Made by a program: the position numbers and the translations under genes
Part shown: piece by piece, positions 10,832-57,032 of the stretch
Numbering within the stretch: position 1 is the first letter of the stretch
Layout of the letters: each line of letters opens with the position of its first letter
Notes under the pieces: model-generated
Database searches by the model: none
The model's input: the letters and a program-made list of their open reading frames with translations, nothing else
What the model was told of the DNA's origin: nothing
NCBI GenBank assembly: GCA_024401365.1
Contig: JAKSLE010000001.1
Location: 1 to 64,000 of the forward strand
Direction: 5' to 3'
Length of the DNA stretch: 64,000 nt
From: Bacteroidales bacterium
Lineage (GTDB): Bacteria; Bacteroidota; Bacteroidia; Bacteroidales; Marinilabiliaceae

Positions 10832-10852
10832 AAATACAATTTCAGGAATAAG

Positions 10853-10882
10853 GAGACGTTGCTTGCAGCGTCTCTTTTTTTT
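10853..10882 (+). terminator. Rho-independent terminator
   Basis: Stem GAGACG (10853-10858) / CGTCTC (10869-10874) extended by partial pairing of the loop, then eight T (10875-10882). It follows the BspA-like gene by 21 bp. Confidence 0.85.
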
Positions 10883-10911
10883 GTCAAAAAACAAATTTGA
10901 GAAAAAAGGGT

Positions 10912-10919
10912 TATTTTTG
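10912..10919 (+). promoter_or_regulatory. Possible -7 box of the DUF1349 lipoprotein gene
   Basis: TATTTTTG matches TAnnTTTG. No TTTG lies at the right distance upstream (candidates at 10896-10899 and 10880-10883 give 12 and 28 bp), so this is a weak call resting on position 40 bp before the start codon. Confidence 0.3.
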
Positions 10920-10959
10920 TATATTGAAATGCATTAATACCAAAAGTCAATTAAGTTTT

Positions 10960-11700
10960 ATGGCGATGAAAAAAATATTCATCTCGTTGACAGCTACATT
11001 GATGATAGCTTGTACAAATGATAAAGAAGGCAACAATATGTCACTTAACAACACCACAGACGTTGTAGCATCGATACTCAAGGAAGGCAAGACATTTAAC
11101 CTTGCAGATTTTGAGTGGACACGTGAACCAGAAAGTTTCGCTATTAATGGAGACACGATAGAGATAGTTACGAAGCCCAAGACAGATCTCTGGCAGCGTA
11201 CGTACTATCATTTTCGTAATGACAATGCCCCTGCGTTTCAGATAAGCACGAAAGAAAAATATTTCAGTTTTGTGGTCAAGACAAATTTTAAGGAGAGTCA
11301 TCATCGTTTCGACCAGTGTGGTGTGGTTATGTATCTAGACAGCGACAACTGGTTGAAAGGAAGCATAGAGTATGAGAATGAACAATTCCAGCACTTAGGC
11401 AGTGTAGCAACCAACAACGGCTACAGTGACTGGGCAACGACAGCTATACCAGCAGATGTAAAGAGCATGTGGTACCGGTTCTCGCGCCGTGCTGATGACT
11501 TCTGCATAGAATGTTCTACAGACGGAGAAGAGTGGAGTCAGATGCGCGTATGCCATATGTACGAGGCAAAAGACTCTATAAGATTTGGAATTTATGCTTG
11601 TTCTCCAGAAGAATCGTCATTCAAGGCTATCTTCACAGACATGAAGATTACGGAATGTATGTGGAAGGCGCATGATGGTCAGCAGCCTGACGAAGAGTAA
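10960..11700 (+). CDS. DUF1349-type concanavalin A-like lipoprotein
   Basis: A 246-aa exported protein. From ATG 10960 (or 10966) it begins MAMKKIFISLTATLMIACTN, a lipoprotein signal with the lipobox cysteine at about residue 18. Starting from the earlier in-frame codon at 10897 would place 21 non-signal residues in front, so I rejected it. The rest (about 45-235) matches the DUF1349 / regulation-of-enolase-1 family: a jelly-roll beta sandwich with FDQCGVVMYLDSDNWLKGSIEYEN and WYRFSRRADDFCIECSTDGEEW. Such domains are probably carbohydrate- or ligand-binding, without a known catalytic residue. Monocistronic, with a strong bidirectional terminator shared with gpmI. Confidence 0.8.
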   Translation: MAMKKIFISLTATLMIACTNDKEGNNMSLNNTTDVVASILKEGKTFNLADFEWTREPESFAINGDTIEIVTKPKTDLWQRTYYHFRNDNAPAFQISTKEKYFSFVVKTNFKESHHRFDQCGVVMYLDSDNWLKGSIEYENEQFQHLGSVATNNGYSDWATTAIPADVKSMWYRFSRRADDFCIECSTDGEEWSQMRVCHMYEAKDSIRFGIYACSPEESSFKAIFTDMKITECMWKAHDGQQPDEE

Positions 11701-21284: not shown

Positions 21285-22040
21285 TTACACCCATCGTGAA
21301 TATTTATGGTAAAAATATATCAAGGCCTTCAAATGATTAAACGCCAATCGTGAATAAGGTCTATTTTTGGTTATTCTCGCATAATAATGCACAATTGATA
21401 CTCCCGAAAGATATTTCATACAGTATCCTGCTCTAGCCGTCCTAATACATATGTCGGCATCCTCTGGACCGTAAAATATACGTTCATCCAAGTAGCCGAC
21501 CTTTTCAAGAACAACTCTACGCAACAATTGGCAAGCCCCTATTATATAACTTCCGTCAGACTCTAACACATTATTAAAATCTACAAGAGAATAATCTTTG
21601 TCATTCAAATGCAGAATACTTTTCAGTTTCTCCAAGACACCAGGGAATGGACGACAATTATTCTGAACAATGCCTTTGTCATCTACCATTCTACAGGTCA
21701 CAATACCCACCTCATCATTATTTTCAGCATATGTAAGCATACTCATAATAGCTTCAACTGAAGGTATCGTATCATTGTCTAATTGCAGAATAAACTCTGA
21801 AGACGCTTTGCGATAACCTTGATTTCTACCTCTAGAGACCCCGAGGTTGCGCTCATTACAAATGACTTTGATGGTTGGATATAATGAAATAATCTCTTGT
21901 ACTGTTCCATCTCGCGACCCATTATCTACAACTATTACCTCAAAATCGCCATGTTCTATCAAAGGATGCAAATTTCGCAAGCATTCTAATGTAATATTTT
22001 TCTGATTACATGTTAGTATGACTATCGACAACCTCTTCAT
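21285..22040 (-). CDS. Glycosyltransferase family 2
   Basis: A 251-aa GT-A fold glycosyltransferase acting at the cytoplasmic membrane face on the polysaccharide repeat unit. SIVILTCNQ at the N-terminus, VVDNGSRDGT and ERNLGVSRGRNQGY match the rhamnosyl/GT2 WcaA-like group. LQLDNDTI is the metal-binding DxD-type motif, and EDADICIR is a plausible catalytic-base region. Donor and linkage are not predictable. The start overlaps the radical SAM gene stop by 4 nt (ATGA). Confidence 0.85.
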   Translation of the reverse strand: MKRLSIVILTCNQKNITLECLRNLHPLIEHGDFEVIVVDNGSRDGTVQEIISLYPTIKVICNERNLGVSRGRNQGYRKASSEFILQLDNDTIPSVEAIMSMLTYAENNDEVGIVTCRMVDDKGIVQNNCRPFPGVLEKLKSILHLNDKDYSLVDFNNVLESDGSYIIGACQLLRRVVLEKVGYLDERIFYGPEDADICIRTARAGYCMKYLSGVSIVHYYARITKNRPYSRLAFNHLKALIYFYHKYSRWV

Positions 22041-23473
22041 CCAAACAGCTTCCTTCTAACAGCACTAAATGCGGAACTAAACTCCGTGATATTATCAAAT
22101 CGACGTAGTTGCTTTATAATAAAAGTTGGCGACAAATAATATCTTATATTATTCCAGAACAGTAATTGCTCCATATCCTTAGCCGACAGATTAGGCAAAT
22201 TTACGATTGACTCACGTTGAACATCTGTCGGAGTATATTCCCCATTAATAAGCCAGCCATTTTCCTTGCATATGTCATAGTATTCTGTGCCAGGAAACGG
22301 TGAAACGATGTTAAACATCACCTGATCGACGTCTAAACGCTTGACCTCGTGCAATGTATGAAGAACAGTTTCCTTTGTCTCCAACGGAGAACTACCAATT
22401 AGCACATTTAGTTTAACCGGAACCTTGTATCGCTTAAGCAGGTCAATCGCGTTGTATATTTGATTAACTGTAATATTCTTGTTTATGTATTTCAGGATAT
22501 CGTCATTAAATGACTCTACACCAAGATCAACATACCTACATCCAGTATTTCCAAGGACCTTAGCAATTGGCTCCGTAATCGAGTCCACCCGAGCCTGACA
22601 TCCCCACACGAATCCTCGCTTCGAAAGTGCTTGCGCCAACTCAACTGTTCTCTTTTCGTTCCAAATAAAATTATCGTCCATAAAGCCAACAGCTTTATAC
22701 CCTTGGGTCTTAAGCAAGTCCAACTCTTTTTCAACATTCTCAACACTGCGAAAGCCTATCAATGGTTTTCTCCCCGATAGTCTCCTACTCTCTATCTCTT
22801 TTGAAAAAGTCAATGAACTTGGAACACAATAAATACACTGATAAGGGCAACTCCTAGATGTAATCATTGCGGTATATGGACCAGTCTTTAACTTAGGATT
22901 GTGAAAATGCCGACTTCCTAGCAAATGTCTAGATGGGAATGGCAACACATCTAAGTCTTTAATTGCTTCACGAGCTTTATTATTATGTATAATTCCATTC
23001 CTGACAATCGTTATTCCATCAACATCAGATATATCCTCTCCTTCGTTAATTAATGAAAATAATTCGTACAACGTATTTTCAGGTTCTCCCCTAACCACTA
23101 TCACCTTCTCATCAATTGCGCATTTATCCGAAAAATATGTCGCACCAGGTCCTAATAGCAGCACATACTTCACATGCCTTTTGGCAAGTATATGTCGAAT
23201 AGCCTCTAAGTCTGTCTTAATTGACAAATTGACTACCCATAGCAAATAACAATCTGAGTCATCATTTTCAACAAAATCGCAATATTCGCGCTTGCTATTC
23301 CCCGAAAAATCGAAATAGCGAACACTCACACCAACCTGCTCCAAAACGGCTGCAGACTGCAATTCATATATATTGGGCACAGGATAAACAACTCTTGTAC
23401 ACCCTGCAGAGCGGTCTGCGGGAACTTTACCATCAAAAGATGGTGGTATGATAAATGTTGCCTTAATTGGCAT
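22037..23473 (-). CDS. B12-binding-type radical SAM enzyme in the polysaccharide locus
   Basis: A 478-aa class B-like radical SAM protein. Residues about 1-160 form a Rossmann-type domain in the cobalamin-binding position. The usual DxHxxG cobalamin motif is not obvious, so bound B12 is uncertain. The radical SAM core starts at about 195 with CPYQCIYC (CxxxCxxC for the 4Fe-4S cluster), continues with GFMDDNFIW and DLGVESF, and ends near 410. Relatives include BchE/HpnJ-type enzymes and methylases. Its place between an epimerase (3 bp upstream) and a GT2 (4-nt overlap) implies it modifies a sugar or lipid intermediate of this polysaccharide, for example by methylation, deoxygenation or rearrangement. 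That is inference. Confidence 0.8.
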   Translation of the reverse strand: MPIKATFIIPPSFDGKVPADRSAGCTRVVYPVPNIYELQSAAVLEQVGVSVRYFDFSGNSKREYCDFVENDDSDCYLLWVVNLSIKTDLEAIRHILAKRHVKYVLLLGPGATYFSDKCAIDEKVIVVRGEPENTLYELFSLINEGEDISDVDGITIVRNGIIHNNKAREAIKDLDVLPFPSRHLLGSRHFHNPKLKTGPYTAMITSRSCPYQCIYCVPSSLTFSKEIESRRLSGRKPLIGFRSVENVEKELDLLKTQGYKAVGFMDDNFIWNEKRTVELAQALSKRGFVWGCQARVDSITEPIAKVLGNTGCRYVDLGVESFNDDILKYINKNITVNQIYNAIDLLKRYKVPVKLNVLIGSSPLETKETVLHTLHEVKRLDVDQVMFNIVSPFPGTEYYDICKENGWLINGEYTPTDVQRESIVNLPNLSAKDMEQLLFWNNIRYYLSPTFIIKQLRRFDNITEFSSAFSAVRRKLFG

Positions 23474-38113: not shown

Positions 38114-39117
38114 ATTGACAATACTATCGGTTCGTCTTGTTCAAAGTCTTTAATTGCAGCTGTTCCAGATACTAAATCCCAATGTATTGCACTAATTCCC
38201 CTGTCCACACGTTTCAAATCCATATTATCAGCACTTAACGTATCTCCCTTCTTTATCTCTCTAGATGCGACAAGACGTTTCAATACTATCTTTGAAATCT
38301 CTCTTTCACTCTTATTCGGTCTCTTTACCCCATCACCCAATGCTTTTTCTAGGTTTCTAATAGAATCGACCATAGCTTTCAACTCTTGAGGTTCTAACGA
38401 AGCCTTATGATCAGGACCATCCATTGTTTTGTCAAGAGTAAAATGCTTTTCTATTATCTCTGCACCTCGTGCAACCGCAGCAACTGGCACCTCAATTCCC
38501 ATCGTATGATCAGAATAACCTATCTTGCATCCTAAACTTTGAAGCGTATTCATAGCAGCCAAGTTAACTTCTTCCATCGGGCATGGATAATTAGTAGTGC
38601 AATGCAATATCGCAACAGTCTTGGCACCTGCTTCAATTAACGTACGGTACGCCAAATCAACATCAGACAGATAACTCATTCCTGTGGATAGTATAACGTC
38701 CATCTTTCTGCTGCCAACTATCCTTAAAAACGGAATATTTGTTACGTCTCCAGAACCTAATTTTATAAAAGGGATCCCCAAACTTATCAAAAAATCTAAA
38801 CTTTCCTCTTCATCTGGTGTGGACAAAAACTGTATTCCGATTTCGTCACAGTATTGCTTTATTATTCTGAAGTTATTATACGATAATTCTAAAGCCTTCA
38901 GCATGTCATATTGGCTCTGTTCTTTATCTGAAATATTCTCATGCTGATAAGTAGCTAGCTCTGCCGTTCTGGTAACAATCTTCTCCGTCTTCCACGTCTG
39001 GAATTTCACAGCATCTACTCCTGCTTCTTTCGCAGCATCGCACAATTTCAATGCAAGATCTAACCTTCCGTTATGATTAACTCCAGCTTCTGCTATTATA
39101 TATACACGTTTACTCAT
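38110..39117 (-). CDS. legI: Nonulosonic (sialic/legionaminic) acid synthase
   Basis: A 335-aa NeuB-family enzyme condensing phosphoenolpyruvate with a hexosamine to form the nine-carbon acid. The TIM barrel carries IIAEAGVNHNGRLDLALKL, KFQTWKTEKIV, LGSGDVTN and GYSDHTMGIEV. The C-terminal SAF/antifreeze-like domain (about 275-335, LVASREIKKGDTLSADN) completes the site. All expected residues are present. Substrate is inferred from the neighbouring LegG and LegC homologues as 2,4-diamino-2,4,6-trideoxymannose-type. Overlaps by 4 nt on both sides. Confidence 0.92.
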   Translation of the reverse strand: MSKRVYIIAEAGVNHNGRLDLALKLCDAAKEAGVDAVKFQTWKTEKIVTRTAELATYQHENISDKEQSQYDMLKALELSYNNFRIIKQYCDEIGIQFLSTPDEEESLDFLISLGIPFIKLGSGDVTNIPFLRIVGSRKMDVILSTGMSYLSDVDLAYRTLIEAGAKTVAILHCTTNYPCPMEEVNLAAMNTLQSLGCKIGYSDHTMGIEVPVAAVARGAEIIEKHFTLDKTMDGPDHKASLEPQELKAMVDSIRNLEKALGDGVKRPNKSEREISKIVLKRLVASREIKKGDTLSADNMDLKRVDRGISAIHWDLVSGTAAIKDFEQDEPIVLSI

Positions 39118-40295
39118 AGAATACTATTATTCATTTGCTGTTCCGCCGTCCATCTTGATCTGACTAAGGTATATTCATTATCTTCTTTCACATATACATT
39201 AGGCAAAAATCTGATAAACATAGGAGACAATGTCATTGTATATGCCCCCACCCACTTGAAGTAGAGTCTATTAGACGTAGTCAAAAGCGGTGTATTCTCT
39301 ACGTCAAACAATCGGTCATTCTCTAAACATGTACAACCAGAAACTATCTGTTTTGATACACGCTGCACAGAAATAGGGCCTTCTACCTCATAAAAATATG
39401 TAGTCTTTCTAAAGAATGGATCTACATCATTTCGTGTTCCATCCGTCGTGACATAATATTGTCCATCATGTTGCTTCACATCGAATACAGAAATGAGATA
39501 ACTATATGGCCCAGCGACTAATGCGTTACCAGGTTCAACTATGATTGTTGTGTTTTGGGGGTCTATATATCTTGCCAATGTTTCATTTATAACATTGGCA
39601 TAGTCAGAATACAAAGGTTTATTTGGCATTTTCCCAAAATATCCACCTCCGACATCCACATAATCTACACTAATACCAAGTTTTTTTAATATTGGCATCG
39701 CATAATTAATTATATTCTTATAGCATTCTAAACTTCTCGTTTTTGATGTTCGGTGAATATGAACACCTGTAATCCTGACACAAGAAACACTGCTTATTTG
39801 TTCAACTGCTTTCCTAAGATCTCCTGACTCATAGGAAAAACCAAACCGGCTGTCATCATCTTCGTGATTAGAATCATCCGGGGAAACATTGGATAGATTT
39901 ACATTTATCCTAATGCCCACTCCATAACTCTCTCCTTGCGGCAAATCTCGAAGCCATTCAATTTCTCTGAATGTCTCAATATTTACAATGGCCCCATTCC
40001 TTATCGCATCTAGAAATGTATCCTTCGATTTCATTGGGCCATTATATATTATCCGATTCTTTTCAAAACCACATGCCAAAGCCAATTGATATTCATCATA
40101 CGACACAACCTCAGCGTAACAAGCACTCTGACAAGCAACTTTCATGCTGTACGGCAATGAATTGGTCTTCACAGAATACCCTACAATTGCTTCTCTGAAA
40201 AAAGGGGCAAGGGCTGTTCGGAAACCTATACAACTATCTTCTAATTCTTTTCGGTCAAGAATAAAACAAGGAGTTTCTAGATCTTGGTATGTCAT
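39114..40295 (-). CDS. Fold-type III PLP-dependent amino acid decarboxylase (LysA-like)
   Basis: A 393-aa enzyme of the Orn/DAP/Arg decarboxylase family 2. K in YSVKTNSLP (about 43) binds PLP. GVHIHRTSKTRS, DVGGGYFGKMP and the catalytic Cys region SGCTCLENDRLF are intact, followed by VGAYTMTLSPMF. The substrate-binding EPGR of DAP decarboxylase reads EPGNALVAG, so the arginine is replaced. This suggests a substrate other than meso-DAP. The gene overlaps legI by 4 nt and lies next to an ATP-grasp gene, inside the legionaminic-acid set. I infer it supplies an amine (or decarboxylated amino acid) to the polysaccharide. Not the housekeeping lysA by context. Confidence 0.85.
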   Translation of the reverse strand: MTYQDLETPCFILDRKELEDSCIGFRTALAPFFREAIVGYSVKTNSLPYSMKVACQSACYAEVVSYDEYQLALACGFEKNRIIYNGPMKSKDTFLDAIRNGAIVNIETFREIEWLRDLPQGESYGVGIRINVNLSNVSPDDSNHEDDDSRFGFSYESGDLRKAVEQISSVSCVRITGVHIHRTSKTRSLECYKNIINYAMPILKKLGISVDYVDVGGGYFGKMPNKPLYSDYANVINETLARYIDPQNTTIIVEPGNALVAGPYSYLISVFDVKQHDGQYYVTTDGTRNDVDPFFRKTTYFYEVEGPISVQRVSKQIVSGCTCLENDRLFDVENTPLLTTSNRLYFKWVGAYTMTLSPMFIRFLPNVYVKEDNEYTLVRSRWTAEQQMNNSIL

Positions 40296-40305
40296 TTCTT
40301 AGTAG

Positions 40306-41307
40306 TTAATCATGAAAATCACGCAACAAATCTTTCTCCTTTGTGATGACGACATCATCATACATCAACATCAGCACGCCTTCTTCATAATTGCCTATTT
40401 CAGGAGTATTGGCTTTCCCGTTTATGTTATTGACTATATACTGAATAAAATCAACCCCAGCACCATATGCATGTAAATAAGCGCCGCCAAACCTTGGATT
40501 AATTTCAGATAAGTAATAAACGCCATCTTTATAGAAGAAATCCATATCAACAGCACCAGCGAAATCAAACAATGGAACAATCTTCTTCACAAAATCAAAT
40601 AATTTTTCATCTTTGAATGATATTGTTTTACTTGCGCCTCCTATTCGTGTCTCGATCTTCTTTTTCGAGAATACGGCAATAAGTTCCTTTGAGATGCAGT
40701 CAATATAAGCATCAGCATCAAAGTCCTCACAATTCATAAACTCTTGGATTATGTAGTCGTACTTGCCTTCAGCAAATTTCAACTTCAAATCATCCATAGT
40801 CATTATCTTCTGCGCACCGACACTTCCGCTGCCACTTCTAGGCTTGATAAATACAGGAAATGCCATATCCCCTTTTTCATATCCCGAAAGAAATTCTTCC
40901 ATATTTGAATACGTAAGGACTGTATTTATACCGTTATCTCGCAAATACTTATACATCTCATATTTATCGAAACATAGATGCGCAGATTTAGGAGATGGAC
41001 ATAGTGGAAGAATTCCTTTGCTGATAAACTTTTCTCTGTTCGCAGCCAACAACTCAATTTCTGGATCAATGCATGTCAACACTGCTTTAATATCCTCTTT
41101 CTGACAGATATTCAATACTTCATTAATGTAGTTCGGATCATTGATTTTTGGCACAACATATTGAACATCTGCCATAAAAATTGCAGGTGCTACAGACCAA
41201 TTATCCGTAGCAATAACCTTCCCTGAACCATTCAACGTTGTTCTTACATCTTGAACGAAACGACCTCTTCTTCCTGCGTTACAGCACAGTATATTATTCA
41301 TACTCAT
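40306..41307 (-). CDS. ATP-grasp ligase (CarB-like)
   Basis: A 333-aa ATP-grasp enzyme forming an amide or similar bond through an acyl-phosphate. N-terminal Rossmann-like part (ILCCNAGRRGRFVQDV), then FPVFIKPRSGSGSVGAQKI (ATP-binding loop), YIIQEFMNCEDFDADAYID (metal/ATP residues) and DFFYKDGVYYLSEINPRFGG (Mg-binding E-I-N). This resembles the PylC/CarB-like ATP-grasp proteins found in polysaccharide loci. Start at 41307 overlaps the legG stop (ATGA). Between legG and the decarboxylase, it probably joins an amino-acid-derived group to an amino sugar. The substrate pair is unknown. Confidence 0.82.
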   Translation of the reverse strand: MSMNNILCCNAGRRGRFVQDVRTTLNGSGKVIATDNWSVAPAIFMADVQYVVPKINDPNYINEVLNICQKEDIKAVLTCIDPEIELLAANREKFISKGILPLCPSPKSAHLCFDKYEMYKYLRDNGINTVLTYSNMEEFLSGYEKGDMAFPVFIKPRSGSGSVGAQKIMTMDDLKLKFAEGKYDYIIQEFMNCEDFDADAYIDCISKELIAVFSKKKIETRIGGASKTISFKDEKLFDFVKKIVPLFDFAGAVDMDFFYKDGVYYLSEINPRFGGAYLHAYGAGVDFIQYIVNNINGKANTPEIGNYEEGVLMLMYDDVVITKEKDLLRDFHD

Positions 41308-43588: not shown

Positions 43589-45568
43589 TTAAAGTTTAAA
43601 AATTATCACTGCATCATTTTCAAAAACAACACAATTATCTATACTCAATGCACTATTACCAATATTTTTGAATAGAACAACATAGTCTACACCTTCGCTT
43701 TTTATCAATGAGATAGAATCTTTTTCTCCCGAATACAATGATTTAATAAGACCTAAACGATGTTTGCACATATCATCGTTAACCGTAGAATAGTCATACC
43801 CCTCCAAATATGCCTGCCTTTCTGAAAAGGCACTTAATATAAACGAACGGTGCCCCCCCACTTCTGCTAACACCTTATTGGATACAACAATCGAGCTTGG
43901 TCCTGTATTATCTCGCAGCCATCTCATAGCTGCTAATTCATCAGCTGTCTGCGAAAATCCATTAATGACTCCTACTGTAGTCGGTGGTAGCAACAAATTA
44001 CGCAACCCGTTCTTTGTAGGGATATATATGGTTGACAATAAACCAACAATACCAAACCCAATAGCAGACAACAGCATATATTTTGCCTTACCATGTAAAG
44101 ATTGCACTTCACCCATAACAGAGGACAACCCTACTATGATAGCAGGATAGCCTATAAACCAATAGTACATTTGAGACATTCCGTCATGACTGAAGAACGT
44201 TGTCAAAACAAAACCAATTAGTCCTACAGACAACAAAAAAACAATACTAATGGACTTTATGTTCTTCCATCGCTCTTTTTTTATTAAAAAAAATATAGTC
44301 AATGGCAAAAAAAGTACCAAAACAACATACACAATAAAAACAATTATTGACGATAATATTTCTGAATGAACAATCCCATTAAACAGACTAAATAACTTAT
44401 TCTCAAATGGAGACCTCAAAATAGTTGCTACAAAAGAAAATTCTGGCAACCTATTAGATGAATCAAGACTATTATCATGATTCATGATAAAGCAATAATA
44501 TACACCTACAAAAACCAGTAAAGAGGCAACTCCTATTATGATCGCATTATACCTTTGCTGTACTTGGAACAACATACAAAAACAAGTAATTCCAAATCCC
44601 CCGAGTACTACTAATGCCAATGGCGCTTTTAATCCTGTTGCCACAGCCAACACAAACAAAAATGCTAGTAATAATTTGAAATTATTTGTCTCAAAGTTTG
44701 TCAATAATCTTATCGCCAAAGACAACGCGAAAAGAGACATTCCTAAGCCTTCAGCGAGTCCAATACTTCCTACGTATATATGGTTTGTATAATATAGGTA
44801 TGTCACATTTTCAATGCACGTTGTGAATAACAACATAACCATAGCAAGTTTTGACAACCATGTATCTTTTATTATCACATTTACAAGTAGATACGTCCCA
44901 CCGAAAACCAATATAGTTATTATCAGACTCGTATAAACAAAACACAAATCAAATATTTCGATGTTAGACACATAATGCAAATAGGCGATGTGCATACTTG
45001 AGAAATAGTGATAGTACAAATTGTTCCCCATAACACTCATATCATGAACCGGGAAATCGATCGTACATGCCACACAATTTCTCATCCAAAACAAATAGTC
45101 TTGATTCTGTAATGTATACCCAGTAATTGCAGGCGACAAATTATTGCACGTATATGTTATTAAGCCGATTCCATAAGCAAGCGAAATAACTACGACATTG
45201 AATATTATGCTAGTTTTGTCGTCACATTGAACCCTTTTGTATTCGCCCGTCCTTATTAAAAAGAATAATGAAACCACTGATAACATTACACTGGGGTATA
45301 AAACTAGCTCTTGACACTTTAGAAGTAAGCATCCTATATACAAAGTAATAGACAAGCCATAACCCAACAGATAGGACGAAAATAAATACTCTGTCTGGTT
45401 GTTTGATTTAAATCCAAAAACTCTGTATAGCATAGCACCTGGACAGAACACCAAGAATATCTGCGTAGCAACGAAAAACAGATAGTCTAAGAAACTTACT
45501 CTTCCCACAATCGTGGAAATCGTAGCAAGCGCAATAAATAGTAATGGAAGAATAAACTTCTTCATCAT
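43589..45568 (-). CDS. Large integral membrane protein, GT-C glycosyltransferase candidate
   Basis: A 659-aa protein with about 13 predicted membrane helices and a soluble C-terminal domain (about 535-659). The loop after the early helices (NQDYLFWMRNCVACTIDFPV, then NNLYYHYFSSMHIAY) contains Asp/His pairs in the position where GT-C enzymes have their catalytic Asp. The C-terminal domain (ELAAMRWLRDNTGPSSIVVS, YLEGYDYS) resembles the end domains of polyprenyl-phosphate-dependent membrane glycosyltransferases. It would transfer a sugar from an undecaprenyl-phosphate carrier in the periplasm. It sits between LegC (6 bp) and WecE (1 bp). Assignment is from topology and motif resemblance only. 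Confidence 0.6.
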   Translation of the reverse strand: MMKKFILPLLFIALATISTIVGRVSFLDYLFFVATQIFLVFCPGAMLYRVFGFKSNNQTEYLFSSYLLGYGLSITLYIGCLLLKCQELVLYPSVMLSVVSLFFLIRTGEYKRVQCDDKTSIIFNVVVISLAYGIGLITYTCNNLSPAITGYTLQNQDYLFWMRNCVACTIDFPVHDMSVMGNNLYYHYFSSMHIAYLHYVSNIEIFDLCFVYTSLIITILVFGGTYLLVNVIIKDTWLSKLAMVMLLFTTCIENVTYLYYTNHIYVGSIGLAEGLGMSLFALSLAIRLLTNFETNNFKLLLAFLFVLAVATGLKAPLALVVLGGFGITCFCMLFQVQQRYNAIIIGVASLLVFVGVYYCFIMNHDNSLDSSNRLPEFSFVATILRSPFENKLFSLFNGIVHSEILSSIIVFIVYVVLVLFLPLTIFFLIKKERWKNIKSISIVFLLSVGLIGFVLTTFFSHDGMSQMYYWFIGYPAIIVGLSSVMGEVQSLHGKAKYMLLSAIGFGIVGLLSTIYIPTKNGLRNLLLPPTTVGVINGFSQTADELAAMRWLRDNTGPSSIVVSNKVLAEVGGHRSFILSAFSERQAYLEGYDYSTVNDDMCKHRLGLIKSLYSGEKDSISLIKSEGVDYVVLFKNIGNSALSIDNCVVFENDAVIIFKL

Positions 45569-45569
45569 T

Positions 45570-46703
45570 CTATAACTTCGAATAATACTCTTTAATCAAC
45601 TCCACTATTGAATCCACTTGCTCAAGTGTCAACTCGTAGAACATTGGTAATCTAACTAGACAATCTGCATACATGTCACAATTAGAAAGCGTCGGAATAT
45701 CTGCATAATGTGTAGTGTAATATTCACTCTTATGCAAACTAAGATAATGGAATACACTCAATACATCATGGTCCTTAAGATATTTAATCAAGCCACTACG
45801 TTCATCCAAATTACGACAGACTAGATAAAACATATGCGCATTATTAGTCGCATAGTCGGGTATCTGCGGTAGACGAACAACACATTTGGCTGCTAACAAC
45901 TGAAGTCCCCCCAAATATTGTTCCCACAATTTTTTTCGCTTAGTCTGAATATCATCCATACTCTCTAATTGAGCCCAAAGAAAAGCGGAAACCACCTCAG
46001 AAGGTAAAAATGAGGAACCAGTATCGCACCATCCGTACTTATTAACCTCACCTCGGAAAAATTCAGATCGGTTAGTTCCCTTTTCCCATATAATTTCAGC
46101 ACGACGAATAAATCGCTCATCATTAATACCAAGAAGCCCGCCTTCGCCAGCTATAATATTCTTAGTTTCATGGAATGAAAAAGCGGAAAGGTGACCAATA
46201 GTGCCAAGTGGTCGTCCTTTATAGAATGAATCTATTGCTTGCGCTGCATCCTCAACAACAAGGAGATTATGTCGATTGGCAATATCCATAATCTTATCCA
46301 TGTCGCAAGCCACACCTGCATAATGTACAGGAACTATCACTTTTGTTTTGGGAGTAATTAATGCTTCTATCTTGTCTGCGTCTATATTTGGATTACTCTC
46401 CATAGAATCGGCAAATACAACTTTGCATCCTTGTCGAACAAAAGCAAGTGCAGAAGATACAAATGTATATGAAGGTACTATCACTTCGTCACCTGGTCCT
46501 ACATTGCAAAGGATAGCGCACATTTCAAGTGCATCTGTACACGATGTAGTAAGAAGGGTTTTCTTGAACCCATATTTCTGTTCAAAGAATTTTTGACACT
46601 TCTTTGTGAACACTCCATTACCAGAAAGCTTACCAGTGTAAACAGCCTCATACATATAGTGGGCCTCCTTACCAGTAAGGTAAGGTTTATTAAATGGTAT
46701 CAT
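45570..46703 (-). CDS. wecE: dTDP-4-amino-4,6-dideoxygalactose transaminase (WecE/RffA-like)
   Basis: A 377-aa PLP aminotransferase converting dTDP-4-keto-6-deoxy-D-glucose (from RmlA/RmlB here) to dTDP-4-amino-4,6-dideoxy-D-galactose (Fuc4N). It follows E. coli WecE from end to end: MIPFNKPYLTGKE, GDEVIVPSYTFVSSALAFV, VPVHYAGVACDMD, SFHETKNIIAGEGG (PLP lysine) and KGTNRSEFFRGEVNKY. I start at 46703 to match the family's MIPFN start; ATG 46733 adds ten residues. No WecD-type acetyltransferase follows it. Preceded by the longest gap within the operon (176 bp), which holds an RNA-structure candidate. Confidence 0.92.
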   Translation of the reverse strand: MIPFNKPYLTGKEAHYMYEAVYTGKLSGNGVFTKKCQKFFEQKYGFKKTLLTTSCTDALEMCAILCNVGPGDEVIVPSYTFVSSALAFVRQGCKVVFADSMESNPNIDADKIEALITPKTKVIVPVHYAGVACDMDKIMDIANRHNLLVVEDAAQAIDSFYKGRPLGTIGHLSAFSFHETKNIIAGEGGLLGINDERFIRRAEIIWEKGTNRSEFFRGEVNKYGWCDTGSSFLPSEVVSAFLWAQLESMDDIQTKRKKLWEQYLGGLQLLAAKCVVRLPQIPDYATNNAHMFYLVCRNLDERSGLIKYLKDHDVLSVFHYLSLHKSEYYTTHYADIPTLSNCDMYADCLVRLPMFYELTLEQVDSIVELIKEYYSKL

Positions 46704-46782
46704 AGTTGGTATATTTTGCGTACGAACCGCCAATAGCTAGTTAGCGCTTATAAAAATATATTTATTCTTTGCAAAATCTACT

Positions 46783-46860
46783 ACATATCAACCTACTCTA
46801 CCTCTTTGGTACACGCGTAAGTTACATTATATCACGTGTGAAGTAGGTAAGGCGATATGT
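46783..46860 (-). ncRNA. Candidate intercistronic RNA structure
   Basis: On the transcribed (minus) strand three nested helices can form: ACATATC/GATATGT (46860-46854 with 46789-46783), ACCTACT/AGTAGGT (46848-46842 with 46797-46791) and ACACGTG/CGCGTGT (46839-46833 with 46817-46811, one G-U pair), with a 15-nt loop and a 13-nt one-sided bulge. The G-U pair would be a C-A mismatch on the other strand, which favours the operon strand. No T run follows, so it is not an ordinary terminator. Confidence 0.4.
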
Positions 46861-46879
46861 ATTGTATTGAGACAACCTC

Positions 46880-48115
46880 CTATTTCTCTACATAATTGCC
46901 ATTATAGAGATAGTCCCTAAGTTGCTCCTTCGATAAATGCTCAATGCCAAGATACTCAAGATTATACTTTGTATCTTCATAGAAACTTTTCTCATGGAAA
47001 GCGCCACCTATAGTAATCATGGCATCAATAATGGGCGTTGGAACACCGAACTTAACTCCTAAATCATGGTATATCTTACATCCTACCGGAATATCTTCTG
47101 TGATGTATCTATGATTGATATTGTTAGGGCCTGTATTACCTTCATCACATGGCTTATCTAGAGGGAATACAACATTGTCGTTTCCATTCTCATCAAGTCC
47201 CATATATTCCTGTGTCAATATAGAACGACGGCTAAAGAACATCTCGTACTTGTACTTAGGATAATCAATGCCAAGCGCCTTTGCTATTTCAACCTGCTCC
47301 ATATAGAACTTGTACTGAACTCGACAGATAGAAGGGCACAAACCATGACTGTACATTGAATAAGATTCTGGCTCGTTTCCATATACTAAACTCCAGTTTT
47401 CCATACTTGAAACTCCGAGTAACGAAGCTGGTACATGTATTACAGGATTAATATTTGAGAATCCTATGTCTACCATTGTATCTCCTCTGTCACATCCATT
47501 TCCTGTAGTAACAGAATCCATACAAGGAAGATATTTGGCACTCTCAATGAAGTCATCAATATCGCACATTGGTAATGTTGCACCACGCAAAGAAATAGCA
47601 CGATACTTGATTCCAACGTGATTGGTCCAGAAACCTTGAACTTTTTCAACACGTGTACCATATGGAGCTGATCCCCATCCGCCAACAATAACGTCCTTAG
47701 TACATCCTGCTTCACGCATAAACTTACGCAACAAGAAACTTGCAAAATTATCTGGATATGTATGAATCACCATGCCATCTTCAAGTAGAGGAACAAGTGT
47801 TCTGAGATAATCCTCATGCGCCAAGGCAGGAATACTCATCAATATAAGTTTTGCCCCCTTAACTGCTTTAGCCATGTCCGTAGTATACATATCCATATGA
47901 GCACGTCCTGAACGTTCAAAGCCATACAGATTACGCTGTATTCCGTCCATCTGGATACCTGTTTTGTCCATGTATGCCAAAGATTTTGGAGAACGAGAAT
48001 AGAGACGAACCTCTCGACCTGCTAATTTGCAATCAGCCGCCAACGTCATACCCACAGCACCGGCACCTAACACCGCAATTGGGCAACTTGCCAAATAACT
48101 TAAATCTCTTGCCAT
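46880..48115 (-). CDS. NAD/NADP-dependent opine (octopine/nopaline-type) dehydrogenase family protein
   Basis: A 411-aa protein. The N-terminal dinucleotide domain has AVLGAGAVGMTLAADCKLAG (GxGxxG). The C-terminal octopine-dehydrogenase domain has NPVIHVPASLLG (conserved catalytic-type His), SILTQEYMG and the family hallmark NINHRYITEDIPVG. Opine dehydrogenases reductively condense an amino acid with a 2-oxo acid to a secondary amine dicarboxylic acid. Related genes occur in O-antigen loci that carry N-(carboxyethyl)amino acids such as alanopine. It lies 9 bp after an ATP-grasp ligase, which could couple the opine to a sugar amine. Substrates unknown. The conserved fold is shared with other 6-phosphogluconate-DH-like enzymes, so activity is inferred. 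Confidence 0.85.
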   Translation of the reverse strand: MARDLSYLASCPIAVLGAGAVGMTLAADCKLAGREVRLYSRSPKSLAYMDKTGIQMDGIQRNLYGFERSGRAHMDMYTTDMAKAVKGAKLILMSIPALAHEDYLRTLVPLLEDGMVIHTYPDNFASFLLRKFMREAGCTKDVIVGGWGSAPYGTRVEKVQGFWTNHVGIKYRAISLRGATLPMCDIDDFIESAKYLPCMDSVTTGNGCDRGDTMVDIGFSNINPVIHVPASLLGVSSMENWSLVYGNEPESYSMYSHGLCPSICRVQYKFYMEQVEIAKALGIDYPKYKYEMFFSRRSILTQEYMGLDENGNDNVVFPLDKPCDEGNTGPNNINHRYITEDIPVGCKIYHDLGVKFGVPTPIIDAMITIGGAFHEKSFYEDTKYNLEYLGIEHLSKEQLRDYLYNGNYVEK

Positions 48116-48124
48116 ATATATATT

Positions 48125-49396
48125 TTATTTATTAATGTTTACTTTTGATACAATCATGTCAACACCATCCGCATTCTTGATTTGCAAGGTACTATATACC
48201 CATTTTACGAAATCACACGCATCTGTTCTATCCTTGAAGTACGCAATGAATTCAGCTACTCTTTGTCTAACATCTTTCGTGTCTGGAATTGATTCCCCTT
48301 CTTTATATATTTGACGAGCAGATCTAACTTCGGCCGCATTCTTGACAATATCAAAACCTTCAAAACTTCCTATTATACCTGGACTACATGAAATAGAAAG
48401 GATTAGACAAATACCACCATTGTATCCAAACGCAGATTTGGGATTACCATAACATGCTTTTACATTACCAGTAACAGCATACTCAACAAATGCTTTCATG
48501 CTATCAAAACCGGTAACTTCTTTTGTTACTATATCGAAATCAGACCCTGGAAATCTTAACCCTGGATCATACATATATACACGTCCATCTTCCCAAAAAC
48601 CTTGCATAAAGAAAACGCCGAATTGAACTCCTGTTGACTTTATCATTTTCTTTATGTTTGGTTCTACATCCCTTAAAAATTGATCAGCATGTTTTGATGG
48701 AAGCATTGTCGCCATTTGCTGACACTGCAACCCATCTTCTACCTTTCCGACATAACGATCGCCTAACTTAACAAGATACGGCTCTCCTCCTATTACCATA
48801 TACACAACAGACATGTCGTCTTTGCCATACATATAACGTTCAACAAGTGCAACGCCATCTTTCGATTCACTTTTTGCAATAGACAACGCATTTTCGACAT
48901 CAGCCAGAGAATGACAAACTGTTATACCTCGTGAACCACGACTATCAGAAGGTTTTACCAATATGGGAAATTTAACCTTGCCATTCACAAGGTCACTTTC
49001 AGAATACTCTTCAATAACATCTACTCCGTACTCTTTGCAATATGATTTAAACTTTCTTTTGTTTGTGAAAATGTCAAACAATTCAGCAGAAGCGAAACAT
49101 GGTGTCCCCAATGATTCGCTAATTTGCTGATAATGCTTTTGAACTGTGTCTATGCAGAAGTCTATTACCCCATCAACTTTCTCCTGCTTACATTTCTCAA
49201 CAACTGCCGACGTGTCATTTGTACTAAGCATCCAATACTCGTCAGCAATTAATTTGGTAGGCGATTGTTCAACCGGTAGATAATCAGTAACTATTGTATA
49301 TACACCGAGCTCACGAGCTGCGGTCACTAATTTCATATGAACATCATTACCAGCAAGAATTAAGAGTTTCTTACCTTTTAAACTTTCACAACTCAT
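48125..49396 (-). CDS. ATP-grasp ligase (CarB/PurK-like), partner of opine dehydrogenase
   Basis: A 423-aa ATP-grasp enzyme. LLILAGNDVHMKLVTAARELG begins the pre-ATP-grasp domain without its last residue. FPILVKPSDSRGSRGITVCH is the ATP-binding loop. ALVERYMYGKDDMSVVYMV and VYMYDPGLRFPGSDFDIVT carry the metal/ATP residues, although the usual E-x-N-x-R reads DPGLRFPG, a departure at the Mg-binding site. The C-terminal portion (about 330-423) is a regulatory/biotin-carboxylase-C-like domain. Position before the opine dehydrogenase and after two small transporters suggests amide coupling of an opine or amino acid to an amino sugar. Substrate unproved. Confidence 0.8.
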   Translation of the reverse strand: MSCESLKGKKLLILAGNDVHMKLVTAARELGVYTIVTDYLPVEQSPTKLIADEYWMLSTNDTSAVVEKCKQEKVDGVIDFCIDTVQKHYQQISESLGTPCFASAELFDIFTNKRKFKSYCKEYGVDVIEEYSESDLVNGKVKFPILVKPSDSRGSRGITVCHSLADVENALSIAKSESKDGVALVERYMYGKDDMSVVYMVIGGEPYLVKLGDRYVGKVEDGLQCQQMATMLPSKHADQFLRDVEPNIKKMIKSTGVQFGVFFMQGFWEDGRVYMYDPGLRFPGSDFDIVTKEVTGFDSMKAFVEYAVTGNVKACYGNPKSAFGYNGGICLILSISCSPGIIGSFEGFDIVKNAAEVRSARQIYKEGESIPDTKDVRQRVAEFIAYFKDRTDACDFVKWVYSTLQIKNADGVDMIVSKVNINK

Positions 49397-49399
49397 ACT

Positions 49400-49732
49400 T
49401 TATTGAAAGAAAATTATCATACCTACAACAATCAACACTATTGCAAGTATTTGCTTTATATTCACAGACTCACGAAAAACAATATATGAAAGGACTGGAA
49501 TAACAAGGTAGTTGAGAGATTCTATTACAGACAATTCCTTGATGGTCAAGCCTAGGTGCATCGCGTATATATTAATCAACAAAGAGATTCCCATTAATGA
49601 ATATCCCAACATCACTTTCATATTTACGTACTCTCTAAAAAACGACTTATAATCTTCACGAGAACTCCCTTTAAGTAACAATTGCGATATGGACGCTATA
49701 AATACCGCAAAAACAGACAGAATATATACCAT
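49400..49732 (-). CDS. Small EamA/SMR-like membrane protein (ArnE/ArnF-like)
   Basis: A 110-aa protein of four predicted helices in the EamA/small multidrug resistance superfamily: the N-terminal YILSVFAVFIASISQLLLKG is the typical first helix with the SQ..LK pattern. LSVIESLNYLVIPVLSYIVF and LAIVLIVVGMIIFFQ form the third and fourth. ArnE/ArnF pairs of this size flip undecaprenyl-phosphate-aminoarabinose. Here a second half transporter precedes it (1-nt overlap) and an ArnC-like transferase precedes that, so the same role for another sugar is likely. Confidence 0.8.
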   Translation of the reverse strand: MVYILSVFAVFIASISQLLLKGSSREDYKSFFREYVNMKVMLGYSLMGISLLINIYAMHLGLTIKELSVIESLNYLVIPVLSYIVFRESVNIKQILAIVLIVVGMIIFFQ

Positions 49733-50082
49733 TACTCTGCAGCTTGATTAGACTGAGATGAGTATAACACTATGCCTGAAATTACCAACCCTGCTCCAAT
49801 TAAATTGTTCATAGTCATCTCTTCACCAAAAACAAATGCTGATATAAGCAAAACAAAGACCATAGATACACCTTTGAACATATAAGCCACGGACAACTCA
49901 ATATACTTGAGTATCTGTTGCCAAAGTAAAGCGTATAATCCAAGAACACATACTGCTCCAATTATGCCTAATATATACCCCAATGAAAAAGGGATACACT
50001 GAGAGGCATACTTCGTAAATAACGTCACTGAAGCGTAAAGCATATTTACAAAAACAAGCATAAATACGTGTTTAGCTATCAT
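49732..50082 (-). CDS. Small EamA/SMR-like membrane protein (ArnE/ArnF-like)
   Basis: A 116-aa, four-helix member of the same family (LVFVNMLYASVTLFTKYAS at the N-terminus; LSVAYMFKGVSMVFVLLISA; GEEMTMNNLIGAGLVISGIV). The motif around FGE-x8-LIGAGLVISGI is the classical SMR helix-4 entrance. It forms a coupled pair with the next gene (1-nt overlap) and probably a heterodimer acting as lipid-linked sugar flippase. Eight bp separate it from the ArnC/GtrB-like gene. Confidence 0.8.
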   Translation of the reverse strand: MIAKHVFMLVFVNMLYASVTLFTKYASQCIPFSLGYILGIIGAVCVLGLYALLWQQILKYIELSVAYMFKGVSMVFVLLISAFVFGEEMTMNNLIGAGLVISGIVLYSSQSNQAAE

Positions 50083-50090
50083 TGTAGCCT

Positions 50091-51011
50091 TTAGAAATTA
50101 AGTTTACTCCTAACTATAAATATCTGACGACCTTTAACTTGATCAAATATTTTTCCCACATATAATCCAATAATTCCTAACACAAACAATATTAGGCCTC
50201 CAACAAACCAAATGGAAAATATAGTAGCGGTAAATCCTGGTACTTGTATTATTCCAACTAGTTTAGCAATAATATTGTAAAGTGCAAGAATAAACGACAA
50301 CATTGACATTATGAAGCCTAAACTCACTGTCAATCTTAAAGGTTTATTGCTATTTGATATTATAACGTCAAAACTCAACTTCAACAATTTGAAAAGAGTA
50401 TAACCAGTAGAGCCTTCTAACCTTTCATCATGCTGAACATCAATAGTTCCTATCTTGAAGCCAACATATCTTATCAAACTACCAAAGGACCTAGTATACT
50501 CAGGCATTTTGTTGAATTCATCAATAACACTTCGCTTATAAACACCAAAATTAGCAATAGCTTTGTCTTCATTTGACCCACTCATCCAATTGTATATAGC
50601 AAAGAACATTGTCGAAGACAATTTCTTAAAAAAGGAATCTTGACGTTCTGCTCTTCTCGCATAAACTATGTCATATCCTTCAACAGCCTTTGCATACAGA
50701 TTTGGTATCTCCTCTGGTCTATCTTGTAAATCACAATCCATAACAACTATCCAGTCTCCACTAACATGAGCCAATCCAGCGGAAATAGCATAATGCTGAC
50801 CAAAATTACGAGATAGTTCTATTCCCTTAACGTGATTGTCTATAGCGCAAATCTCAGTTATTCTGTCCCACGAGTTATCTGGAGACATGTCATTTACAAG
50901 TATTATCTCATACTCATCTGTAATAGTTTTCACAGCTTCACTAATGCGACGAACCAGTTCGTCTAGCATTTTTTCGCCTTTATATATAGGAGAGACTATC
51001 GATAGTTTCAC
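50091..51011 (-). CDS. Polyprenyl-phosphate glycosyltransferase (ArnC/GtrB/DPM1-like GT2)
   Basis: A 306-aa GT2 enzyme with two C-terminal membrane helices (about 232-255 and 268-292). SIVSPIYKGEKMLDELV, IILVNDMSPDNSWDRI, GIELSRNFGQHYAISAGL and VVMDCDLQDRPEEIP (DxD in DCDLQD) are hallmarks of the family that loads a sugar onto undecaprenyl phosphate. HDERLEGSTGYTLFKLLKL matches GtrB/ArnC. Together with the two small transporters it forms an ArnC-ArnE-ArnF-like set. Its donor could be the dTDP-Fuc4N derivative or another nucleotide sugar made here. Confidence 0.9.
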   Translation of the reverse strand: MKLSIVSPIYKGEKMLDELVRRISEAVKTITDEYEIILVNDMSPDNSWDRITEICAIDNHVKGIELSRNFGQHYAISAGLAHVSGDWIVVMDCDLQDRPEEIPNLYAKAVEGYDIVYARRAERQDSFFKKLSSTMFFAIYNWMSGSNEDKAIANFGVYKRSVIDEFNKMPEYTRSFGSLIRYVGFKIGTIDVQHDERLEGSTGYTLFKLLKLSFDVIISNSNKPLRLTVSLGFIMSMLSFILALYNIIAKLVGIIQVPGFTATIFSIWFVGGLILFVLGIIGLYVGKIFDQVKGRQIFIVRSKLNF

Positions 51012-55573: not shown

Positions 55574-56142
55574 CAGTACAGCGGAATATTAATATCAAAT
55601 GGCGAGTCAAAGTCCTTAAGCATCTCATGCTTAGTGTCTTTGTCACTCAATATCGCTTGTTCTGTAGGTATCTGCCAGTTGATTCCCAACGATTTGTCCA
55701 ATATCGAGATACCTCCATCTGCTTGTGGCGCATAAAAATTGTCACACTTGTACTGGAATACAGCCTTATCACTCAATACAGCAAAACCGTGCGCAAATCC
55801 TCGTGGCACAAAAAACTGCCTGTGATTCTCTTCGGTCAACAACACCGATACGTGCTTGCCGTATGTAGGCGATCCCTTACGAATGTCAACAGCTACATCA
55901 AGTACTGCCCCCTTAACACAACGGACTAATTTCGATTGCGTGTATGGCGGCCTCTGAAAGTGCAACCCTCTCATAACACCATACGAACTCATCGACTCGT
56001 TGTCTTGAACAAAATTTATAGGGCGAACCTTCTCATCAAATTCTCTTTGCGAAAATGATTCAAAGAAATATCCTCTTGCATCCTTGAACACTTTTGGCTC
56101 AATGATAACAACGCCTTCTATATCTGTCTTTATTACTTCCAT
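55573..56142 (-). CDS. rmlC: dTDP-4-dehydrorhamnose 3,5-epimerase
   Basis: A 189-aa cupin epimerase. VIIEPKVFKDARGYFFESFS, MRGLHFQRPPYTQSKLVRC and FVPRGFAHGFAVLSD carry the catalytic His and Tyr environment. It epimerises C3 and C5 of dTDP-4-keto-6-deoxyglucose for RmlD. Overlaps rmlA and rmlD by 1 nt. Confidence 0.97.
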   Translation of the reverse strand: MEVIKTDIEGVVIIEPKVFKDARGYFFESFSQREFDEKVRPINFVQDNESMSSYGVMRGLHFQRPPYTQSKLVRCVKGAVLDVAVDIRKGSPTYGKHVSVLLTEENHRQFFVPRGFAHGFAVLSDKAVFQYKCDNFYAPQADGGISILDKSLGINWQIPTEQAILSDKDTKHEMLKDFDSPFDINIPLY

Positions 56143-57032
56143 TACTTCGAACGCTCTACTTCTTCAACAACTTGCAACAAGTATTGTCCGTATTGGTTCT
56201 TAATCATTGGCTGCGCCAACTCACGCATCTTATCTGCCGAAATCCAACCCTTCCTGAATGCTATGCCTTCCAGACACGCAACCTTAAGGCCTTGTCTCTT
56301 CTCTATACACTCGATAAATGTAGATGCCTCCGACAACGAATCGTGTGTACCTGTGTCCAACCAAGCAAATCCTCTGCCTAATGTCTGAACCTTGAGTTCT
56401 CCAACCTTCAGAAATTCTTGATTGACTGTGGTAATCTCCAACTCTCCTCGCGCCGATGGCTTGATATTCTTTGCTACATTTACAACTTTGTTTGGGTAAA
56501 AGTAAAGACCAACTACCGCATAGTTGCTCCTTGGCTGTGCAGGCTTCTCTTCTATCGACAAACAGTTGCCTTCTTTGTCAAATTCAGCTACACCATATCT
56601 CTCTGGATCTTTAACCCAATACCCAAATACCGTCGCCTTACCGTCTTCTTCTGCTGTACGTACCGACTCTTTCAACATGGCCGAAAAACCTGCGCCATAG
56701 AAGATATTGTCGCCCAATACCAAACATGCAGAATCATTGCCAATGAATTTCTCGCCTATAATGAACGCTTGCGCCAAACCGTCTGGCGATGGCTGCTCAG
56801 CATACTCAAACTTCACTCCATAATCGGAACCGTCACCCAACAATCTCTTAAAACCAGGCAAATCATGTGGCGTGGAGATAATCAAAATCTCTCTGATACC
56901 TGCCAACATCAATACCGATACTGGATAATAAATCATCGGCTTGTCATAAACAGGCAACATCTGCTTGCTTACTCCCTTCGTAATCGGATACAATCTAGTA
57001 CCACTACCACCGGCTAAAACGATACCTTTCAT
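56142..57032 (-). CDS. rmlA: Glucose-1-phosphate thymidylyltransferase
   Basis: A 296-aa enzyme making dTDP-glucose. [20 protein letters not shown] is the nucleotide-binding signature. [33 protein letters not shown] and [14 protein letters not shown] are all conserved. It is the first gene of the polysaccharide operon, about 138 nt after the predicted transcription start. Confidence 0.98.

Follow-up and report, generated by a model that had tools for sequence, protein, structure and literature searches.

A seven-gene run in a polysaccharide cluster

We analysed a 64,000-nucleotide stretch of a Bacteroidales genome (Marinilabiliaceae; NCBI assembly GCA_024401365.1, contig JAKSLE010000001.1, positions 1 to 64,000), referred to here as the window, in which seven consecutive genes within a polysaccharide cluster form a candidate module for decorating a glycan with an opine-bearing amino sugar. 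A preliminary description of the locus, made from the sequence alone, had proposed the order of these genes and a tight spacing with one gap. Both were borne out by the open reading frame (ORF) listing, which places all seven on the minus strand with intergenic distances of 8, −1, 3, 9, 146 and 1 bp in transcription order. Six of the seven, the donor-side genes, were found together again in a different order in a second genome (see below). The features, in transcription order and preceded by two upstream genes for the predicted sugar precursor, are:

56142..57032, minus strand: RmlA-like glucose-1-phosphate thymidylyltransferase, named from sequence; 63% identity to an ORF in locus L036
53526..54725, minus strand: RmlB dTDP-glucose 4,6-dehydratase, upstream in the same run; TIGR01181, 454 bits (cut-off 365)
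50091..51011, minus strand: family 2 glycosyltransferase (GT2) of GtrB/ArnC type; PF00535, 98.4 bits (cut-off 23.3)
49732..50082, minus strand: EamA/SMR-type flippase subunit 1 (EamA1), ArnE/F-like, 116 aa; PF00892, 39 bits (cut-off 28.2)
49400..49732, minus strand: EamA/SMR-type flippase subunit 2 (EamA2), ArnE/F-like, 110 aa; PF00892, 24 bits, below the cut-off of 28.2
48125..49396, minus strand: ATP-grasp ligase; weak matches to PF07478 (25.2 bits, cut-off 24) and PF02786 (25.1 bits, cut-off 19.8)
46880..48115, minus strand: opine dehydrogenase; PF02317, 108 bits (cut-off 30)
46734..46879, minus strand: 146-bp intergenic gap with a long imperfect hairpin at about 46782-46861
45570..46733, minus strand: WecE-type aminotransferase; NF008687, 562 bits (cut-off 375), TIGR02379, 512 bits (cut-off 434.85), PF01041, 270 bits
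43589..45568, minus strand: 659-aa orphan membrane protein with 13 hydropathy segments, a candidate periplasmic GT-C transferase

Of the domain families anticipated in the preliminary description, PF02317 was recovered in the opine dehydrogenase and PF00892 in EamA1, with EamA2 falling short of the cut-off. The GT2 protein gave near full-length matches (residues 2-301) to PDB entries 5ekp (E 2.8e-54), which we take to be GtrB sll0501, and 9hwj, ArnC (E 3.3e-52), and carries two C-terminal hydropathy helices (237-255 and 267-285), fitting the ArnC/GtrB class. From this likeness, it may load a sugar onto undecaprenyl phosphate (Und-P). It scored 202 bits against the curated ArnC equivalog cut-off of 529, and the small EamA pair that adjoins it was likewise under curated cut-offs: 31.2 bits (ArnE, cut-off 92) and 28.5 bits (ArnF, cut-off 99) for EamA1, and 20.5 bits (ArnE, cut-off 92) for EamA2. 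The available text of a review of small multidrug resistance (SMR) transporters treats ArnE/ArnF as a glycolipid-flippase subtype found in such operons (PMC9574504).

The aminotransferase passes both curated WecE cut-offs; to judge from the sequence, translation probably begins at an ATG 30 bp downstream of the TTG that was listed as its start. Amination at C4 of dTDP-4-keto-6-deoxyglucose (dTDP, deoxythymidine diphosphate) yields 4-amino-4-deoxyfucose (Fuc4N) with WecE and 4-amino-4-deoxyquinovose (Qui4N) with DesI, and the window enzyme is predicted to yield dTDP-Fuc4N.

The opine dehydrogenase contains a Rossmann domain and the PF02317 helical domain and matches PDB 1bg6 (phmmer, E 4.9e-20). 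Its residues H227 and D341, presumably the catalytic positions, align with His and Asp in that structure and are invariant in five sequences. We propose, from this family membership, that it joins an amino acid to a 2-keto acid. The ATP-grasp protein, with a LAL_C2 match below the Pfam cut-off, is related by sequence to PDB 4dim and more weakly to the L-amino acid ligase 3vot, a likeness consistent with amide formation. It is 56-60% identical to copies in loci L028, L029, L032 and L040, and we propose that it could amidate the 4-amine of the sugar with an opine carboxylate.

The window genome (3.05 Mb, 76 contigs, 87% complete) holds a single opine dehydrogenase gene. No match was found in the other 14 genomes of the genus, which together with the single copy fits horizontal arrival, and none at E 1e-40 in 70 other genomes of the family and 392 other genomes of the order.

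Recurrence of the donor genes and of a smaller cassette

A scan of 84,980 species genomes with a two-sequence opine dehydrogenase alignment yielded 98 confirmed relatives; 80 of them entered the analysis. One further relative, L105, came from viral contigs, in which an earlier scan with the single opine dehydrogenase protein had given no match. Window proteins were then compared with the ORFs of the nearest 26 opine dehydrogenase loci, eight of them in detail. Failure of the families to co-occur elsewhere had been named in advance as a possible refutation of the module. All six donor-side genes were found together in L032, from a metagenome-assembled genome (MAG) of an uncultured member of the Bacteroidia, where the run reads 558-aa multi-helix protein, GT2, ATP-grasp, opine dehydrogenase, EamA1, EamA2, WecE, with gaps or overlaps below 30 bases when ORFs are taken from their first start codon. 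Identities between the window and L032 are 68% for GT2, 59% for the ATP-grasp protein, 77% for the opine dehydrogenase, 52-54% for EamA1, 46% for EamA2 and 76-78% for WecE. The EamA genes lie between GT2 and ATP-grasp in the window and after the opine dehydrogenase, two genes from GT2, in L032. The sequences themselves establish the family assignments and the reappearance of six genes of the run in another order. Chance or an annotation artefact was considered as an explanation and rejected, since the six genes stand together again in a new order at 46-77% identity.

A third locus, L040, holds GT2, ATP-grasp and opine dehydrogenase before the contig ends. The window GT2 is about 68-70% identical to the L032 and L040 copies, and among 13 opine-dehydrogenase genomes a GT2 at 69-70% occurs only in these two, the next best reaching 36%.

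Neighbour counts were made over 81 loci, the 80 genome loci plus L105, with L019 and L022 left out. The neighbour profiles were partly built from the same neighbours, so positives are not blind and zeros hold for genes resembling those in the profiles; the flanks are short on several contigs. In 11 of the 14 loci whose opine dehydrogenase is at least 75% identical to that of the window, an ATP-grasp gene stands on its strand no more than 150 bp away; within that distance there was none in the 12 loci at 60-75% or the 55 below 60%. The corresponding counts for a DegT-type aminotransferase within 4 kb are 9/14, 0/12 and 0/55. Among the closest relatives, the pair of opine dehydrogenase and ATP-grasp is thus often accompanied by a sugar aminotransferase nearby. 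A triad of aminotransferase, ATP-grasp and opine dehydrogenase occurs without this GT2/EamA pair in L028, L029, L035 and L036, and this small cassette sits in other polysaccharide-type loci; the nearest relatives of the window dehydrogenase are mostly in glycan-type loci. Aminotransferases over the WecE cut-off were found in the window, L032 and L034, and the best family for those of L028, L029 and L035 is DesI (289-304 bits, below the cut-off of 650); L029 belongs to a cultured strain, Xylanibacter ruminicola Ga6B6. RmlB is present in five of the seven opine-dehydrogenase genomes searched, and L035 and L036 have RmlA- and RmlB-like genes within the same locus.

The more distant relatives lie in other surroundings. 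The dehydrogenases of L050-L104 are about 47-54% identical to that of the window. In 39 of the 55 loci below 60% identity an Asp/Glu-racemase-like gene stands no more than 6 kb away, and representatives of this set also show an NlpA-lipoprotein-type transporter and members of the MTTB and PanB families; it is probably a separate catabolic group. Of the weak relatives, which also include L004 and L009-L017, five from Bacteroidota (L020-L024) were viewed with their flanks and are 21-27% identical to the window protein. L022 has an ATP-grasp gene beside the dehydrogenase, in a polysaccharide locus; L020, L021, L023 and L024 (at a contig start) gave no match to the window ATP-grasp in the flanks viewed.

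Two further observations concern this family. On L105, a viral contig of 72 kb, an opine dehydrogenase gene (10001-11227, product 77% identical to that of the window) stands between small-terminase-like and large-terminase genes with a portal gene next, and such phage carriage was unexpected. In L025, L030, L033, L034, L042, L044 and L046-L049, a gene of MmgE/PrpD type, a family that includes iminodisuccinate epimerase, is no farther than about 3.4 kb from the opine dehydrogenase (within 160 bp in 7 of the 10 loci; the family scan was made on one member), and its product may epimerise the opine.

The last membrane protein and the surroundings of the module

The preliminary description ascribed a GT-C-like multi-helix layout to the 659-aa protein that ends the run. 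Its 13 hydropathy segments are followed by about 140 C-terminal residues without one. By hydropathy alone, this would fit a published definition of GT-C enzymes, which calls for 7 to 13 membrane-spanning helices and an outer domain that is soluble (PMC11127046). ArnT is described as having 13 helices too, with its C-terminal region on the periplasmic side (PMC5377068); this likeness is a resemblance only. A GT-C match at the sequence level was not obtained. No Pfam or NCBIfam family scored above its cut-off (DUF4131 lay below it in Pfam), and there was no PDB match or sequence likeness to a solved GT-C chain. No homologue was detected beyond the window itself in 296 genomes of the phylum, nor in 249 genomes of the phylum of genome G459, six genomes holding related loci, viral contigs, plasmids or phages. 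The 374 genomes of the order gave one 70-residue match with two internal stops.

The 558-aa protein that heads the L032 run, with 12 hydropathy helices, is not similar to the 659-aa protein: their local alignment scored 52 (shuffles: mean 47, sd 7, maximum 79), their global alignment −82 (shuffles: −108, sd 23), and phmmer gave no match. In serotype-converting systems, GtrC is the acceptor-specific final transferase, and unrelated last membrane proteins at the two loci are what would be expected if the final transferase here were acceptor-specific too.

The module's only gap holds a hairpin (−30.9 kcal/mol, z −4.4) with no Rfam match. A 17-base piece of it matched three loci, all copies of the window itself, and three viral contigs; the hairpin may be either a mobile repeat of small size or an element with a regulatory role. 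Promoter and terminator scans over 42-57.6 kb gave counts about equal to the shuffle expectation.

Upstream of the module, RmlA-, RmlC- and RmlD-like ORFs, named from sequence only, lie beside RmlB, and the genes there include a Ugd-like nucleotide-sugar dehydrogenase at 52284 and a PF02719 dehydratase-like protein. Downstream follow LegC, NeuC and NeuB, all over their cut-offs (42434 to 37409), with CMP-transferase-like/nucleotidyltransferase genes. Between NeuC and NeuB, at 39114-41307, lie a second ATP-grasp gene (PRK12767 type) and a diaminopimelate-decarboxylase-like gene, which suggests that the nonulosonate is decorated with an amino acid too; L030 has counterparts of both (31% each) near its opine dehydrogenase. 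A radical SAM protein is encoded within the polysaccharide cluster at 22037-23473. The G+C content is 35-39% over 22-52 kb and 41-48% in the flanks; lowered G+C is usual for polysaccharide islands.

Proposed route, alternatives and relation to known systems

We favour, with a probability of roughly 0.6, a route in which an opine-acylated dTDP-Fuc4N is loaded onto Und-P, flipped and transferred in the periplasm to the polysaccharide. RmlA and RmlB would make dTDP-4-keto-6-deoxyglucose, which WecE would aminate to dTDP-Fuc4N. The opine dehydrogenase would condense an amino acid and a 2-keto acid into an N-(carboxyalkyl) amino acid, and the ATP-grasp ligase would activate one carboxylate of this opine and amidate the 4-amino group of Fuc4N. 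GT2 would move the acylated sugar from dTDP to Und-P, the EamA pair would let the lipid-linked sugar through to the periplasm, where the 659-aa protein would add it as a side branch to the cluster's polysaccharide. Inferred parts of this scheme are which opine is made, its amide linkage, the acylation of the sugar ahead of lipid loading, the flipping step, the role of a GT-C enzyme and the nature of the acceptor. A decoration module of this kind, as first suggested in the preliminary description, gains from the recurrence of the six donor families in L032 and from precedent for opine amides, and loses from the missing GT-C sequence match of the 659-aa protein. The precedent is the Providencia alcalifaciens O35 O-antigen, in which alanopine is amide-linked to a Qui4N side branch, as listed in a review (PMC10609480); an opine amide on a 4-amino-4,6-dideoxyhexose side branch is to that extent known chemistry. 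The earlier statement that no described system combines all these parts was uncontradicted by searches of one open-access library, judged mostly from titles and the starts of abstracts, with subscription journals mostly outside.

Several observations weigh against this route. All six donor genes were seen outside the window in L032 only, and L032 and L040 are close to each other (GT2 85%, ATP-grasp 74%, opine dehydrogenase 91%), which leaves only two independent arrangements. No GT-C candidate precedes the L040 GT2, the gene there being DNA methylase-like. The GT-C candidate of the window lacks a homologue, so that AF2 was run on single sequences; the resulting pLDDT values of 38.7 (659-aa protein) and 43.3 (558-aa protein of L032) make the models unusable. 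Because the window holds a second ATP-grasp among legionaminate-like genes, the assignment of the dehydrogenase's partner leans mainly on L032. Opine dehydrogenases at least 70% identical to that of the window have no recognised ATP-grasp or aminotransferase neighbour in L025, L037, L038, L039, L041 and L105, some of these flanks being short. Some partner aminotransferases are not clearly of a C4-dTDP kind: the best family in L036 is ArnB (199 bits, cut-off 631), those of L026 and L027 gave partial matches only, and that of L030 is LegC-like by BLAST. Finally, RmlB was not found at E 1e-60 in the L040 and L034 genomes.

The strongest alternative, which we consider unlikely, is that two unrelated systems lie side by side. 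GT2, the EamA pair and the GT-C candidate would then add a plain sugar, for example glucose, in the periplasm, and WecE, the opine dehydrogenase and ATP-grasp would make an opine-Fuc4N for an ordinary cytoplasmic glycosyltransferase to attach to the repeat unit. The triads of L028, L029, L035 and L036, which lack this GT2/EamA pair, indicate that the triad can work alone. In L032, however, the two sets are interleaved in an order other than that of the window, and the two genomes that hold the GT2 subtype, among the 13, both have it adjoining ATP-grasp and opine dehydrogenase.

Somewhat less probable still is that the opine dehydrogenase and ATP-grasp decorate another residue, either the nonulosonate of LegC/NeuC/NeuB or the carboxyl of a uronic acid supplied via the Ugd-like enzyme at 52284. 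The LegC, NeuC, NeuB and CMP-transferase-like genes follow the module directly, a LegC-like gene stands one gene from the opine dehydrogenase of L030, and in the distant L022 a LegC-like aminotransferase (371 bits, cut-off 420) lies near ATP-grasp and opine dehydrogenase. Amides of N-epsilon-(carboxyethyl)lysine with galacturonic acid (GalA) also exist, according to a review. Against this, L032 sets the pair with WecE, and its 21 kb hold no LegC/NeuB match beyond the weak one of WecE itself; L028, L029 and L035 set it with DesI-like aminotransferases. We give least credence to a third possibility, that the dehydrogenase acts on the sugar, joining a 2-keto acid reductively to the 4-amine before ATP-grasp amidates that carboxylate or another group: the sequence does not fix the amine substrate and the subfamily is distant from characterised enzymes (1bg6, E 4.9e-20), but the relatives with solved structures use free amino acids as substrates, and in the glycan example that is known, a ready-made opine is amide-linked.

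Opines are chiefly familiar as metabolites of crown gall, products of invertebrate fermentation and metallophores. If transfer of a lipid-linked opine-Fuc4N is correct, they would also be a genome-predictable decoration of bacterial surface glycans, and such sugars could be predicted from sequence wherever a sugar 4-aminotransferase, an ATP-grasp enzyme and an opine dehydrogenase form a triad. With the GT2/EamA pair, N-acylated 4-amino-6-deoxyhexoses would count among the sugars that lipid-linked donors can bear in the periplasm. Three-component systems would then reach past the cases of glucose, galactose, pentofuranose and 4-amino-4-deoxyarabinose (Ara4N) named in two papers (PMC11127046, PMC9574504). 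We put at even odds a broader proposal: that the module is the first donor system for opine amino sugars linked to Und-P, that its six donor genes form a mobile, reassorting set which works with exchangeable final transferases specific to the acceptor, and that opine-decorated glycans in several bacterial phyla can be recognised by the core triad.

The Arn system, in which ArnC, ArnE/ArnF and ArnT place Ara4N on lipid A, uses a uridine diphosphate (UDP) route and formylation. The module resembles it in the ArnC/GtrB-type GT2 with a small SMR/EamA pair, in the 4-amino sugar, and in a final protein whose 13 predicted helices are followed by a C-terminal stretch. It differs in the WecE/dTDP route and in having an opine dehydrogenase and ATP-grasp in place of Arn formylation. 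The unmatched last protein and the scores below the ArnC, ArnE and ArnF cut-offs are further differences, for which reason we do not class the module as an Arn system. With the octopine and carboxyethyl-norvaline dehydrogenases (PF02317), the window enzyme shares the domain family and the conserved His/Asp positions; unlike them, it belongs to a subfamily of its own, at 21-27% identity to the five weak Bacteroidota relatives and at least 47% to the 81 relatives.

Three-component systems (GtrABC; the Citrobacter youngae pentofuranose system, PMC11127046) likewise combine an Und-P-sugar synthase, a flippase and a separate multi-helix last protein that varies by locus. Here, in contrast, the donor is predicted to be an N-acylated 4-amino-6-deoxyhexose, the flippase is an EamA pair rather than GtrA or a MATE flippase, and the final GT-C is a candidate only. 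The P. alcalifaciens O35 residue, known here from its structure as listed in the review, differs from the predicted sugar at C4, Fuc4N being the epimer of Qui4N. It shares with the proposed product an opine amide on the 4-amine of a 4-amino-4,6-dideoxyhexose, and by analogy a residue like alanopine-Qui4N would predict a cassette such as that of the window.

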